This document shows positions 2,776 to 6,766 of a DNA stretch of 32,226 bases, one piece after another. The notes under the pieces are model-generated. The model saw only the letters and a program-made list of their open reading frames with translations, was not told the DNA's origin and made no database searches. Source of the stretch: Persephonella sp. (GTDB lineage: Bacteria > Aquificota > Aquificia > Aquificales > Hydrogenothermaceae). The position numbers and the translations under genes were made by a program. Each line of letters starts with the position of its first letter. The first letter of the stretch is position 1. The DNA is taken from contig JALVKE010000167.1 of the NCBI GenBank assembly GCA_027028005.1, positions 1 through 32,226 on the forward strand. Reading direction: 5' to 3'.

Positions 2776-4086
2776 TTAAGCTGCTTCCTTTTCAGCTTCC
2801 TGGATAGCTTTTTTAACTATTTCTGTCATATGTGTTTCAGGTCCGTAAACCTCTATTGGAATTCCAAGTTCTTCAGCTGCTTCTTTTATTTTCTTAAGAC
2901 CGATTTCATAGTTTGGACCACCTCTTCTTACGTATATCTTAACGCCGACTTCCCTAAGTTTGTCAGCATATTCTTTCATAGCATCTATGATACCTTCAAA
3001 TGTTTTAGCAACGTCTGTAAAGTTAGCAATAGCACCACCGATGATTAAGATTTTATGCCCTTTTGGATGCTTGCTTCTTGTCATAAGGTCAAAAACAGTT
3101 TTTACATACTCTCTTGTTTCTGCTCTTGAAGGGTTACCTGAGTATTCACCGTAATTTGCAAGCTCTTTAACGTATCCAAGGTCTGCAACGGTATCAGCAT
3201 AAACAACTGAAGCACCTCCACCTGCAACAAGTGTCCAGATTCTTCCTTCAGGATTTAATATCGTAAGTTTTAATGAAGCACCGGATTTTTCATCCATCTC
3301 TTTGATATATTTTTCTTCTGGAGAAAGTTCTCTTCCAAATCCTGCTGGAAATTCAAGCTCTCCCCATTTTTTTCCTACAACAAACTGTGCAGTATCATCA
3401 ACTCTTCCAACAAAGTCAAGAGGATAAACTTTATTTCCAACCATTACAAGTGGGTTAATTTCAAGATATGTAAAGTGAAGATCTCTAAAGAGTTTATAAA
3501 GTCTGTATACAAAATCTGCAAATTTTTCTTTGTCTTTTATTTCAGCTGGAACATTTTCTACTATAAGTTTTTTAATCTCTTCATCTGAAGCTGTGATAGG
3601 TATTCTCACTTCAACAACTTTGTCCCAGTTTTCTTCTACATCTATTCCACCAAAAGCAGACATATAGATAATATCTTCATCTTCATCTGTTGTAATTGCT
3701 ACATAGTACTCTTCTTCAGGTTTGTGTGGAACAAAAGGCTCTACTAAAAAGTGAGTTAAATGTCCTTTTACTCCGTTAATCTCAACCTCTTCAGCCATTT
3801 TTTGTTTTATCCACTCTTTAGCATCTTCCCATGTAACATCCCCAGGTTTTTCCTTTTTGAAGAAAATAAGTCCAAGTTTTCCTCTTTTTCCAAAAAGCAT
3901 GTCTGGTTTCACAACAAGTGGAGTTTCTTTTACCCAAGGATACTGTTCAGGAATCTTATCAAGATCTGTTTCAGGTGTGATTAAGATTGATTTGAAATCA
4001 TACTCAAAGGCACCATCAAAGTACTCATCCCAATTTTGGGCTAAAATTCTTTTTCCATCATACTCTCTAATACCTCGTTGAGCCAT
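2776..4086 (-). CDS. aclB: ATP-citrate lyase, AclB subunit
   Basis: Partner of AclA in ATP-citrate lyase. The N-terminal half (about residues 1-245) is an ATP-grasp domain as in succinyl-CoA synthetase beta, ending in the DLHFTYLEINPLVM motif that carries metal/ATP-binding Glu and Asn. The C-terminal half (about 260-425) is a CoA-ligase/flavodoxin-like domain containing VAGGGASVVYADT and ILIIGGAIANFTDVA. At 436 residues it is slightly longer than Chlorobium AclB (about 398). The start ATG at 4086 follows GGAGG. It is first in the aclB-aclA unit, behind its own predicted promoter, and is separated from the upstream isocitrate dehydrogenase by a terminator. The presence of AclA and AclB points to Hydrogenothermaceae rather than Aquificaceae, which use citryl-CoA synthetase and lyase. 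Confidence 0.96.
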   Translation of the reverse strand: MAQRGIREYDGKRILAQNWDEYFDGAFEYDFKSILITPETDLDKIPEQYPWVKETPLVVKPDMLFGKRGKLGLIFFKKEKPGDVTWEDAKEWIKQKMAEEVEINGVKGHLTHFLVEPFVPHKPEEEYYVAITTDEDEDIIYMSAFGGIDVEENWDKVVEVRIPITASDEEIKKLIVENVPAEIKDKEKFADFVYRLYKLFRDLHFTYLEINPLVMVGNKVYPLDFVGRVDDTAQFVVGKKWGELEFPAGFGRELSPEEKYIKEMDEKSGASLKLTILNPEGRIWTLVAGGGASVVYADTVADLGYVKELANYGEYSGNPSRAETREYVKTVFDLMTRSKHPKGHKILIIGGAIANFTDVAKTFEGIIDAMKEYADKLREVGVKIYVRRGGPNYEIGLKKIKEAAEELGIPIEVYGPETHMTEIVKKAIQEAEKEAA

Positions 4087-4222: not shown

Positions 4223-6469
4223 TTAGCTTTCTAAAAGTGAATCAATTATTCTGTTAAATGTTTCAGAAGGTCTCATTGCTTTTGTAGCTTTTTCATCATC
4301 TGGATGATACCATCCACCAATATCTGTAGGTTTACCTTCTGCAGCTTTTATCTCTTCAAGGATTTTTTCTTCATTCTCTTTCAAGTCTGCATATACTTTT
4401 GCAAATTTTAAAGACAACTCTTTGTCTTTATCTTGAGCAGCAAGTGCTTCAGCCCAGTAGAGAGCAAGGTAGAAGTGAGAACCTCTTGTGTCTAACTCCC
4501 CAACTTTTCTCTTAGGTGTTTTATCGTTTTCAAGGTACTTTCCAACAGCCTGATCTAAAGTTTCAGCAAGAACAAGTAATCTTGGATTTTCTTCTTGGAA
4601 AAGAGCCTTTATCTGTTTGTATGCATGTTTTAATGATTCAACAAATGCAAGGAATTCTCCAAGGGAATCCCATCTAAGATGCCCTTCTTTTATAAACTGT
4701 TCAACATGTTTTGGAGCAGAACCACCTGCACCTGTTTCAAATAGTCCACCACCAGCAATAAGTGGAACAATAGAGAGAGATCTTGCAGATGTTCCAACTT
4801 CAATAATTGGGAAGAGGTCTGTAAGGTAATCCCTTAAAACGTTACCTGTTACAGATATTGTATCTTCACCATTTCTAAATCTTGCTAGAGTAAACTTCAT
4901 AGCATCCTGAGGAGCTTTTATGTAGTAATCAACTCCTTCAAGGTCGTATTTTGGAAGCTCTTCTTTTACAATTTCAATAAGGTTTCTGTCGTGAGCTCTA
5001 TACTCATCAAGCCAGAAAACAATTGGAAGACCACTTTCTTTTGCTCTGTTAACAGCAAGTTTAATCCAGTCTCTTATAGCAAGGTCTTTAGTGATACAGC
5101 TTCTCCAAATATCTCCTTCGTTTACGCAATGCTCTATTAAAACATTTCCTTCTTCATCAACAACTTTCATTTTTCCATCTGCAGGTGGGAAGAATGTTTT
5201 GTCGTGGGAACCGTATTCTTCTGCTTTCATCGCCATAAGACCAACGTTCTGAACAGTTCCTATTTTTGTTGGATCAAACTGTCCCCTTGCTTTTATGTCT
5301 TCAACAATCTCTTTATACATTGTTGCATAAGATCTGTCTGGAATAGAGAGAACAACATCATCTACTTCTCCAGATGGTCCCCATCCTTTTAGACCATTTT
5401 TGATTACAGCTGGAACTGATGCGTCAATAATAACATCATTTGGCCTATGAAGATTTGTTATGCCTTTATCAGAATCAACCATATACATTCTTGGTCTTTC
5501 TTTATATATTTCCTCTATTGTTTTCTTAATAGCCTCTCTTTCTTCTTCTGGAAGCGTTTCCAATCTCTGTTCTAAATCCGCAAGACCAGATTCTGGTTTC
5601 CATCCAAGTTTTTCCAGAATTTCACCATGTTTTTCAAAGAGTTTTGCATAATAAACTCTTATAGCATCACCAAAGATAACAGGATCTGAAACTCTCATCA
5701 TTGTAGCTTTTACATGAAGAGAGAAAAGGATATCTTCTTCTTTAGCTGTGTTTATAACTTCTTCAAAATATTTTCTAAGTTTTTTTCTGTCCATGTATGT
5801 TCCATCTACAACATCACCTTTCCCAACTTCTACTTCTTTTAAAACTGTTTGGTTTCCGTTTTCATCTTCAAATATATATTTGATTTTTGTGTCTTTTTCT
5901 ATAATTACAGATTTTTCATGCTCATAGAAATCACCTGTTTTCATATGAGCAACGTGGGATTTTGAGTGAGGAGAAACATCTCTAAGCTTGTGTGGATGTT
6001 TTCTTGCATACTCTTTAACAGATTTTGCAAGTCTTCTGTCTGAGTTACCCTGTCTGAGAACTGGGTTAACTACAGAACCAACACATCTGTCATATCTCTC
6101 TTTAATCTGTTTTTCTTCCTCAGTTTGAGGATTTTCTGGATAATCTGGTAATGGGTATCCCTGTTTTTGAAGCTCTGCAATAGCTTCTTTAAGCTGTGGA
6201 ACAGATGCAGAGATGTTTGGAAGTTTCATTATATTAGCTTCTGGCTTCCATACAAGCTCACCAAGATATGCAAGGTCATCTGGAACTCTTTTATCTTCAG
6301 GAAGAAGGTCTGGGAATTGTGCAAGAATTCTTCCTGCAAGGGAGATATCTCTTACTTCAATTCCAATATTTGCATCCTTGGTAAATGCCCTCATAATAGG
6401 TAAAAGTGAATAACTTGCAAGCTGTGGTGCCTCGTCGACTTTCGTCCAAACAATGTTAAATTTAGCCAT
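4223..6469 (-). CDS. icd: Monomeric NADP-dependent isocitrate dehydrogenase
   Basis: Interconverts isocitrate and 2-oxoglutarate with NADP(H). Next to ATP-citrate lyase it presumably runs in the reductive, carboxylating direction of the reductive TCA cycle. At 748 residues it has the length of the monomeric (type II) enzyme, not the about 420-residue dimeric form. Visible family residues are Ser143 in VLRQGNSDRR, Lys254 in LHVKATMMRVSDP, Asp349 in VIIDAS, Tyr419 in EEYGSHD, the WLDEYRAHDRN metal/substrate motif (486-496), and the cofactor-region motif GGLFETGAGGSAPKHV. These match, as I recall, the active site of the Azotobacter enzyme. The ATG at 6469 has GGAGG 7 bases upstream. It has its own promoter, a long structured leader and a terminator, so it can be regulated apart from aclBA. 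Confidence 0.96.
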   Translation of the reverse strand: MAKFNIVWTKVDEAPQLASYSLLPIMRAFTKDANIGIEVRDISLAGRILAQFPDLLPEDKRVPDDLAYLGELVWKPEANIMKLPNISASVPQLKEAIAELQKQGYPLPDYPENPQTEEEKQIKERYDRCVGSVVNPVLRQGNSDRRLAKSVKEYARKHPHKLRDVSPHSKSHVAHMKTGDFYEHEKSVIIEKDTKIKYIFEDENGNQTVLKEVEVGKGDVVDGTYMDRKKLRKYFEEVINTAKEEDILFSLHVKATMMRVSDPVIFGDAIRVYYAKLFEKHGEILEKLGWKPESGLADLEQRLETLPEEEREAIKKTIEEIYKERPRMYMVDSDKGITNLHRPNDVIIDASVPAVIKNGLKGWGPSGEVDDVVLSIPDRSYATMYKEIVEDIKARGQFDPTKIGTVQNVGLMAMKAEEYGSHDKTFFPPADGKMKVVDEEGNVLIEHCVNEGDIWRSCITKDLAIRDWIKLAVNRAKESGLPIVFWLDEYRAHDRNLIEIVKEELPKYDLEGVDYYIKAPQDAMKFTLARFRNGEDTISVTGNVLRDYLTDLFPIIEVGTSARSLSIVPLIAGGGLFETGAGGSAPKHVEQFIKEGHLRWDSLGEFLAFVESLKHAYKQIKALFQEENPRLLVLAETLDQAVGKYLENDKTPKRKVGELDTRGSHFYLALYWAEALAAQDKDKELSLKFAKVYADLKENEEKILEEIKAAEGKPTDIGGWYHPDDEKATKAMRPSETFNRIIDSLLES

Positions 6470-6492
6470 AAAACAACCTCCTTTTATAGGAT

Positions 6493-6582
6493 TTATTTTG
6501 ATTGCGAATTTAGAAAATAGGTAAATGAAGTAGCAACAGATAGAAAGATCCTATTTGATTTTTTATATAACCTAATAGCCAT
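6493..6582 (-). CDS. Possible 29-residue leader peptide upstream of icd
   Basis: A 30-codon ORF with ATG at 6582 preceded by AAGGAG at 5-base spacing, ending TAA at 6495-6493, 23 bases before the icd start. The predicted peptide starts MAIRLYKKSNR and ends NSQSK. It is mildly hydrophobic in the middle and not enriched in any one amino acid, so classical amino-acid attenuation is unlikely. It lies wholly inside the predicted icd leader. Its ribosome binding site and start codon are paired in a 13-bp helix. Translation is unproven; it could be a chance ORF. Confidence 0.35.
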   Translation of the reverse strand: MAIRLYKKSNRIFLSVATSFTYFLNSQSK

Positions 6583-6592
6583 TGCTACTCCT
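6534..6592 (-). promoter_or_regulatory. Structured 5' leader of icd: 13-bp helix over a ribosome binding site
   Basis: In the minus-strand transcript GGAGUAGCAAUGG (6591-6579) can pair without a gap with CUGUUGCUACUUC (6539-6527): 13 pairs, three of them G-U. The loop is about 39 bases. The 5' arm contains the Shine-Dalgarno and ATG of the 29-residue ORF. The predicted transcript start (about 6606) puts this helix near the 5' end of a leader of about 136 bases. It resembles a translation- or temperature-controlled leader more than any riboswitch class I know. Confidence 0.45.
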
Positions 6593-6612
6593 TAGAATTT
6601 TAGGACAACAAA

Positions 6613-6641
6613 ATTGTAATTTATTCTCATTGAAAAATCAA
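6613..6641 (-). promoter_or_regulatory. Predicted sigma-70-type promoter of icd
   Basis: Minus-strand TTGATT (6641-6636), a 17-base spacer, and TACAAT (6618-6613). Four of six and five of six bases match the consensus, with ideal spacing. Transcription would start near 6606, leaving a leader of about 136 bases before the icd ATG at 6469. Confidence 0.6.
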
Positions 6642-6729
6642 ACAGTGTTTTATTTTGGAAATAAATCTATATAAAGTAAGATGGTTTATTCTAAGCTATG
6701 AAATAATGTTAAAAAGTTAGATTATTTAC

Positions 6730-6735
6730 TATAAT
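6730..6735 (+). promoter_or_regulatory. Predicted -10 box of the EF-hand protein gene
   Basis: A perfect TATAAT lies 32 bases before the ATG at 6767, with only a weak -35 (TGTTAA region) about 17 bases upstream. Transcription would begin near 6742. It is divergent from the icd promoter; the two lie about 90 bases apart. Confidence 0.45.
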
Positions 6736-6766
6736 TTGAATAATTAATGAAGTAGGAGGAAATTTT

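Follow-up and report, generated by a model that had tools for sequence, protein, structure and literature searches.

In Persephonella sp., the −35 box of the icd promoter lies within a 21-bp palindromic operator, and, judged by the genes beside which it recurs, this shared palindrome looks like the mark of a regulon spanning the Hydrogenothermaceae, in which a putative repressor would control the reductive TCA cycle. Between the operator and icd lies a long leader that is specific to the genus, and comparison of relatives supports its long helix as a structure kept through compensatory change; the helix is regarded as a real conserved RNA structure with a plausible regulatory role. The operator around the promoter is the stronger and wider result of the two. 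In what follows, the window is the whole stretch of DNA that was analysed (32,226 nucleotides), and all features located in it lie on its minus strand.

The operator AAATAAAACACTGTTTGATTT (6635–6655) shows 0 mismatches to the pattern AAATMAAACANTGTTTKATTT and is the sole site in the window within four mismatches of it. It is a dyad with a 7-1-7 core, TMAAACA-N-TGTTTKA, placed over −35 or −10 regions, and its layout resembles that of Fur/PerR boxes, although its letters differ from theirs. The right half of the palindrome contains the −35 box TTGATT (6641–6636), which is followed after 17 nt by the −10 box TACAAT (6618–6613), a box with the same letters in the two other genomes of the genus. 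This promoter had been pointed out in the first-pass annotation and is present as described there, but the position of its −35 box inside a family-wide palindrome had been missed. Taken singly, its match to 9 of 12 consensus letters means nothing, since shuffled sequences contain 2.4 such sites on average; the spacing, however, recurs within the family, and a −10-like box lies 16–18 nt behind the operator's TTKATT position at 18 of 25 palindrome-bearing icd loci. The leader length of about 136 nt agrees with this predicted promoter and is itself a predicted value.

At two mismatches or fewer, AAATMAAACANTGTTTKATTT was found in 41 of 41 family genomes with 1–14 sites each, giving 262 sites in total against 8 for the reversed control. 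At three or fewer, five genomes gave 10–21 sites each compared with 2–7 for the control, and sites with three mismatches are therefore unsafe because the reversed control also matches at that level. At one or none, 3–9 sites were present in each of 17 family genomes (17/17), while among 44 genomes from elsewhere in the order, three had a single site. Upstream of icd, the operator is found with up to three mismatches at 25 of 27 loci; in the icd upstream DNA of more distant relatives (22 of 80 loci), the best operator match has five mismatches. What is shared with the palindromic operators of bacterial repressor regulons is a 21-bp dyad recurring at functionally linked genes, and here the palindrome recurs at the promoters of linked genes more often than its control (262 versus 8).

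Genes with operator sites next to them include icd, acl, acn, kor, frd, mdh, acs, nuo, nadA and argF; the palindrome thus lies at promoters of iron-sulfur genes as well as at those of the reductive TCA cycle. Among the products of site-adjacent genes, NadA, thiol peroxidase, the alpha subunit of 2-oxoacid:acceptor oxidoreductase, NuoH, AcnB, malate dehydrogenase, subunits A and B of fumarate reductase or succinate dehydrogenase, ornithine carbamoyltransferase, acetate-CoA ligase, HemW, a 4Fe-4S ferredoxin, a BFD-like protein, a CO-dehydrogenase-beta-like protein, ATP-citrate lyase and icd itself scored above the model cut-off. Others fell below the cut-off or were named by their sequence, and these are presumably a second NADP-isocitrate dehydrogenase, Ni-superoxide dismutase, a second aconitase, other NADH-dehydrogenase subunits and a porin. 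The sample came from genomes chosen from part of the 262 sites; 87 of its 97 operator loci gave 115 site-gene pairs in 28 protein clusters, with 108 pairs in clusters present at two or more loci, and the remaining 10 loci yielded no gene under the pairing rule. Some of these genes are divergent neighbours and may be non-targets. At L258, L276 and L293 (G005, G006 and G013), operators separate two divergent genes, one encoding a relative of the CO-dehydrogenase-beta-like protein and the other an NADH-dehydrogenase-like membrane subunit; PF02552 is found in the CO-dehydrogenase-beta-like protein of L209.

The operator covers the −35 box at icd and at some other genes. A fixed position of the kind used by activators was considered and set aside: at icd the operator is mostly 16–18 nt before the −10 box, yet in 20 of 60 oriented site-gene pairs no more than 33 nt separate the end of the operator from the start codon. 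Because its position is variable, a repressor fits better than an activator.

The search for the regulator covered Rrf2, HTH_Crp_2, LysR HTH_1 and FUR models in five genomes (G000, which is the window genome, G024, G004, G009 and G053), with one Fur-family match having no locus. Crp, LysR and Fur members were present in 5/5 genomes, and Rrf2 members in 4/5, G000 being the exception. None of the loci fetched for these families in the five genomes carried the operator with three mismatches or fewer, while four of them have a site with four mismatches. Several regulator loci carry the AAACANTGTTT core alone, such as L243 at a LysR gene of G009 and L311 ahead of a Fur-family gene of G053. In L311, a perfect AAACAGTGTTT core without operator flanks is located at position 1250, about 250 nt before the Fur-family match, which is PerR-like by eye. 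No transcription factor was recognised among the site-adjacent gene clusters, part of which were scanned against a model library. As a separate observation, a different palindrome-like stretch, CAAATGCAAATCATTTGCAAAA, is found upstream of one Fur-family paralogue in three genomes (L306, L307 and L309) and looks like an autoregulatory box.

In the window, icd (4223–6469) encodes a monomeric NADP-dependent isocitrate dehydrogenase (TIGR00178, 1087.7 bits, cut-off 950). It is followed after 136 nt by a gene for the subunit of ATP-citrate lyase that carries ATP-grasp and citrate-binding domains (2776–4086; PF16114, PF24948) and, after another 56 nt, by one for a second subunit (872–2719; PF00285, PF00549, PF13607); we take these to be aclB and aclA, respectively. 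The two ATP-citrate lyase genes behind icd were absent from the first-pass annotation. Since they follow icd on the same strand, the leader probably heads an icd-aclB-aclA transcript, with co-transcription of the three genes presumed from this arrangement. A gene with the aclB N-terminal motif is located near icd at 18 of 26 family loci checked. At L031, L032 and L033 (G055, G009 and G056), two tandem operators stand at icd and the acl motif was not found there; in G055 and G009, the acl gene is elsewhere, with its own operator beside it.

The long helix of the leader is formed by a left arm, GGAGUAGCAAUGG (6591–6579), and a right arm, CUGUUGCUACUUC (6539–6527), both assessed by pairing, shuffle and cross-genome comparison. 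All 13 of 13 positions pair, three of them as G-U, around a loop of 39 nt, and the 65-nt hairpin has a minimum free energy of −18.1 kcal/mol (z −3.95) that 0 of 200 shuffles equalled. The left arm holds most of a Shine–Dalgarno sequence (SD; AAGGAG, 6593–6588) and the ATG of a 29-codon upstream open reading frame (uORF), MAIRLYKKSNRIFLSVATSFTYFLNSQSK (6582–6493), whose stop lies 23 nt ahead of the icd ATG at 6469. The 13-bp helix, its cover over the SD and ATG of this small frame and the distance between the frame's end and icd, all claimed from the window alone in the first-pass annotation, were thus borne out.

The leader with its helix was present in 3/3 genus genomes examined, namely G000, G002 and G001, the last being the most divergent. 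For the first nine pairs, the window uses GGAGUAGCA and UGCUACUUC, and G001 uses GGGGUUUUG and CAAAACCCC. Between the two, 11 of these 18 bases differ (five in the left arm and six in the right), and 9/9 pairs are still formed: three are unchanged, one is changed on one side and five are changed on both sides. When five and six substitutions were placed at random, the nine pairs survived in 86 of 200,000 trials. The window helix has four further pairs, of which G001 lacks two and G002 one. The best helix of each leader, determined independently, falls in the same place, with 13, 11 and 10 bp in the three genomes. G000 and G002 differ at 8 of 39 loop positions and are identical over the 23 nt between the uORF stop and the icd ATG. 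Three genomes amount to only two well-separated lineages, so the covariation represents, in effect, a single comparison.

Across the family, icd was found by protein search in 30 of 41 genomes, and its upstream DNA was read at 27 loci; G051:C10, G046:C116, and L035, L037 and L038 (no N-terminus) were left out. At these 27 loci, the long leader is absent from the icd upstream DNA of other genera, and the distance from the end of the palindrome to the icd start codon is 164–165 nt in the window genus versus 29–89 nt at other palindrome-bearing loci. A DNA search with the leader gave matches in 22 of 41 family genomes, and the leader-spanning ones were confined to G000, G001 and G002; the remaining matches are short stretches of the operator surroundings, the icd start and other AT-rich parts. 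One match of 27 nt in G003 (93%, E 3.2e-4) overlaps the 5′ end of the leader ahead of the helix. In addition, a covariance model of the leader (R2, built from alignment A3 with only six pairs in register, and searched under stricter filters) matched 3/41 family genomes, all upstream of icd and all among the sequences from which it was built. The alignment of icd upstream regions of the Hydrogenothermaceae that had been proposed in the first-pass annotation supports covariation of the arms, with nine pairs kept, and restricts the leader to one genus rather than the family.

In 3/3 genus genomes, the uORF retains its place and length: it has 29, 29 and 28 codons, starts inside or next to the left arm and stops 23 nt before icd in all three. 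An SD-like AAGGAG or AGGGG precedes its ATG in each, the AGGGG of G001 being weaker. Its peptide is a different matter. Between G000 and G002, the uORF shows nine nonsynonymous and five synonymous differences, with a pN/pS of 0.134/0.252 = 0.53, while the first 413 codons of icd give 0.023/0.356; the uORF ratio lies far above that of icd, which indicates at most weak selection on the peptide. The G001 peptide has little similarity to the other peptides of the genus, and no match to Pfam was obtained for the uORF. A constraint on a leader peptide or on stalling codons was not detected, given the pN/pS of the G000–G002 pair and the divergent peptide of G001. A frame as long as the uORF is open in 8–11% of shuffles. 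The place of the uORF is thus kept and its peptide does not appear clearly conserved; the synonymous bias for which a test had been proposed in the first-pass annotation is at most weak.

Prediction and covariation together point to a conserved structure over a ribosome-binding site, namely that of the uORF, whose start is predicted to be mostly paired (0.13–0.28 unpaired at 37 °C and 0.23–0.31 at 70 °C). In minimum-energy folds, a second, small hairpin, UCCU-AUAAA-AGGA (6491–6479), pairs part of the icd SD (AGGAGG, 6482–6477). The predicted access of the icd SD at 70 °C is 0.41 in G000, 0.42 in G002 and 0.64 in G001. Folded over −60 to +30 at the same temperature, the icd SD is unpaired at 0.49, 0.49 and 0.55 in the genus compared with a median of 0.77 in other genera (24 icd loci, same span), and 1 of the 24 is as low as the genus. 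At 37 °C, G000 and G002 are unremarkable, with 14/24 others as low or lower, and G001 is low (2/24).

A ribosome footprint placed on the uORF stop is predicted at 70 °C to raise the access of the icd SD from 0.41 to 0.73–0.77 in G000, from 0.42 to 0.56–0.67 in G002 and, as a small gain, from 0.64 to 0.69–0.72 in G001. Overall, access goes up by 0.05 to 0.36 at 70 °C and goes down in 10 of 12 cases at 37 °C. The footprint was set to end ahead of the icd SD, because one reaching into the SD gave overstated values of 0.86–0.90 at 70 °C. When the long helix is blocked, the predicted access of the icd SD hardly moves in two genomes (G000 and G002) and drops in G001, and a simple two-state switch is thereby disfavoured.

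The operator, the promoter spacing, the helix with its compensatory conservation and the kept uORF frame can be read from the DNA itself. The reading that uses all these parts is a genus-specific leader in which a helix-limited uORF is translationally coupled to icd on an operator-controlled icd-aclB-aclA transcript; it is put forward tentatively, as one that may well prove wrong. A repressor at the operator would switch the operon in step with the other parts of the reductive TCA cycle. The long helix would hide the SD and ATG of the uORF and limit its translation, perhaps conditionally, with heat, ribosome supply, a protein or a small RNA as candidate openers. A ribosome translating the uORF would stop at the UAA 23 nt before icd and could disturb the small hairpin on the icd SD, and icd translation might then be raised by coupling or re-initiation. 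It had been suggested earlier that translation of the small frame, or temperature or a ligand opening the helix, could control icd. The helix compensation and the kept place and length of the uORF give this suggestion partial support; nothing singles out temperature or a ligand as the trigger.

The coupling model leads a close rival by a small margin only. In that rival, the hairpin is an element for 5′ stability or protein binding, and the uORF arises incidentally because the leader is AT-rich and one arm is rich in purines. The helix would then protect the end of the mRNA or bind a protein, and translation of the uORF would not be needed. This account is possible, though we doubt it somewhat more. 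It is consistent with a helix whose first base lies about 15 nt into the predicted transcript and whose pairing is kept through compensatory change, with the weak constraint on the peptide, with the open frame found in about one in ten shuffles and with the modest size of the predicted coupling effect; it requires, however, that 3/3 genomes share by coincidence an SD with an ATG at the arm, a frame that stays open and a stop at the same position.

A chance inverted repeat, or an element acting at the level of DNA such as a protein site or a mobile-element end, is improbable. Three related genomes limit the power of any such comparison, and in dinucleotide shuffles of the leader (n = 3000 per genome), each genome taken alone, an equally strong helix arose anywhere in 13 (G000), 98 (G002) and 216 (G001) cases, the latter two values leaving room for chance. 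At the same place, however, the score was reached in 0, 3 and 1 of 3000 for G000, G002 and G001, respectively. A DNA site would be expected to conserve its letters, whereas the arms swap letters and still pair, and no second copy of the leader was found by covariance model search across 41 family genomes.

An RNA thermometer, in which the helix would melt at high temperature and expose the start of the uORF, is rated lower still. In G000, the predicted access of that start is 0.13 at 37 °C and 0.41 at 80 °C, but the rise is gradual, it is small in G001 (0.28 to 0.38) and G002 (0.19 to 0.31), the same behaviour would be expected of any helix this long, and the hidden start is that of the uORF and not that of icd. 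A transcription attenuator, with the hairpin as a conditional intrinsic terminator, is the least credible of these explanations, for although the right arm of G001, CAAAACCCC, is followed by TTTTTCTTCTC, the loops are long (39, 43 and 49 nt) and no comparable T-run comes right after the arm in G000 or G002. A scan for intrinsic terminators found nothing resembling one on the transcript strand of the window or of L017, whose one match lies on the other strand.

Leaders of the ermC type and coupling of the trpE-trpD type are examples of translation attenuation and of uORF-coupled control. The icd leader resembles them in having a short leader ORF, hairpinned ribosome-binding sites and a uORF stop near the next start; it differs in that its long helix hides the start of the uORF and not that of the main gene, in lacking a conserved stalling peptide, and in the genes that would be controlled, which are icd and probably ATP-citrate lyase. 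Structured thermosensor leaders such as fourU and ROSE likewise have a helix across an SD and ATG, but the helix of the icd leader is not on the start of the main gene and its predicted response to temperature is only gradual. A search of Rfam over 6400–6760 gave nothing above the gathering score, and the sole match up to E 1 was RF04343, a plastid psbA-2 3′UTR RNA, which was rejected as chance (18.5 bits, E 0.61; gathering score 55.8). In open-access literature, with subscription papers mostly outside the search, no icd leader, reductive-TCA operator or regulon, or leader RNA was found for these bacteria. In the accessible portion of a paper on non-coding RNAs of the Aquificales (PMC4227106), the word 'isocitrate' does not occur, and the only passage containing 'palindrom' is a CRISPR reference.

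At its widest, the picture would be that of a dedicated repressor controlling reductive-TCA CO2 fixation throughout the family by way of one operator, to which one genus would have added a helix-gated uORF layer that couples translation of the operon to the state of the cell; that both halves hold as put here is unlikely. The operator may serve as a DNA bait and, through the promoters at which it recurs, as a catalogue of targets in the search for whatever switches this pathway of carbon fixation, and the leader would offer a compact reporter test of uORF control in the central carbon operon of a thermophile.
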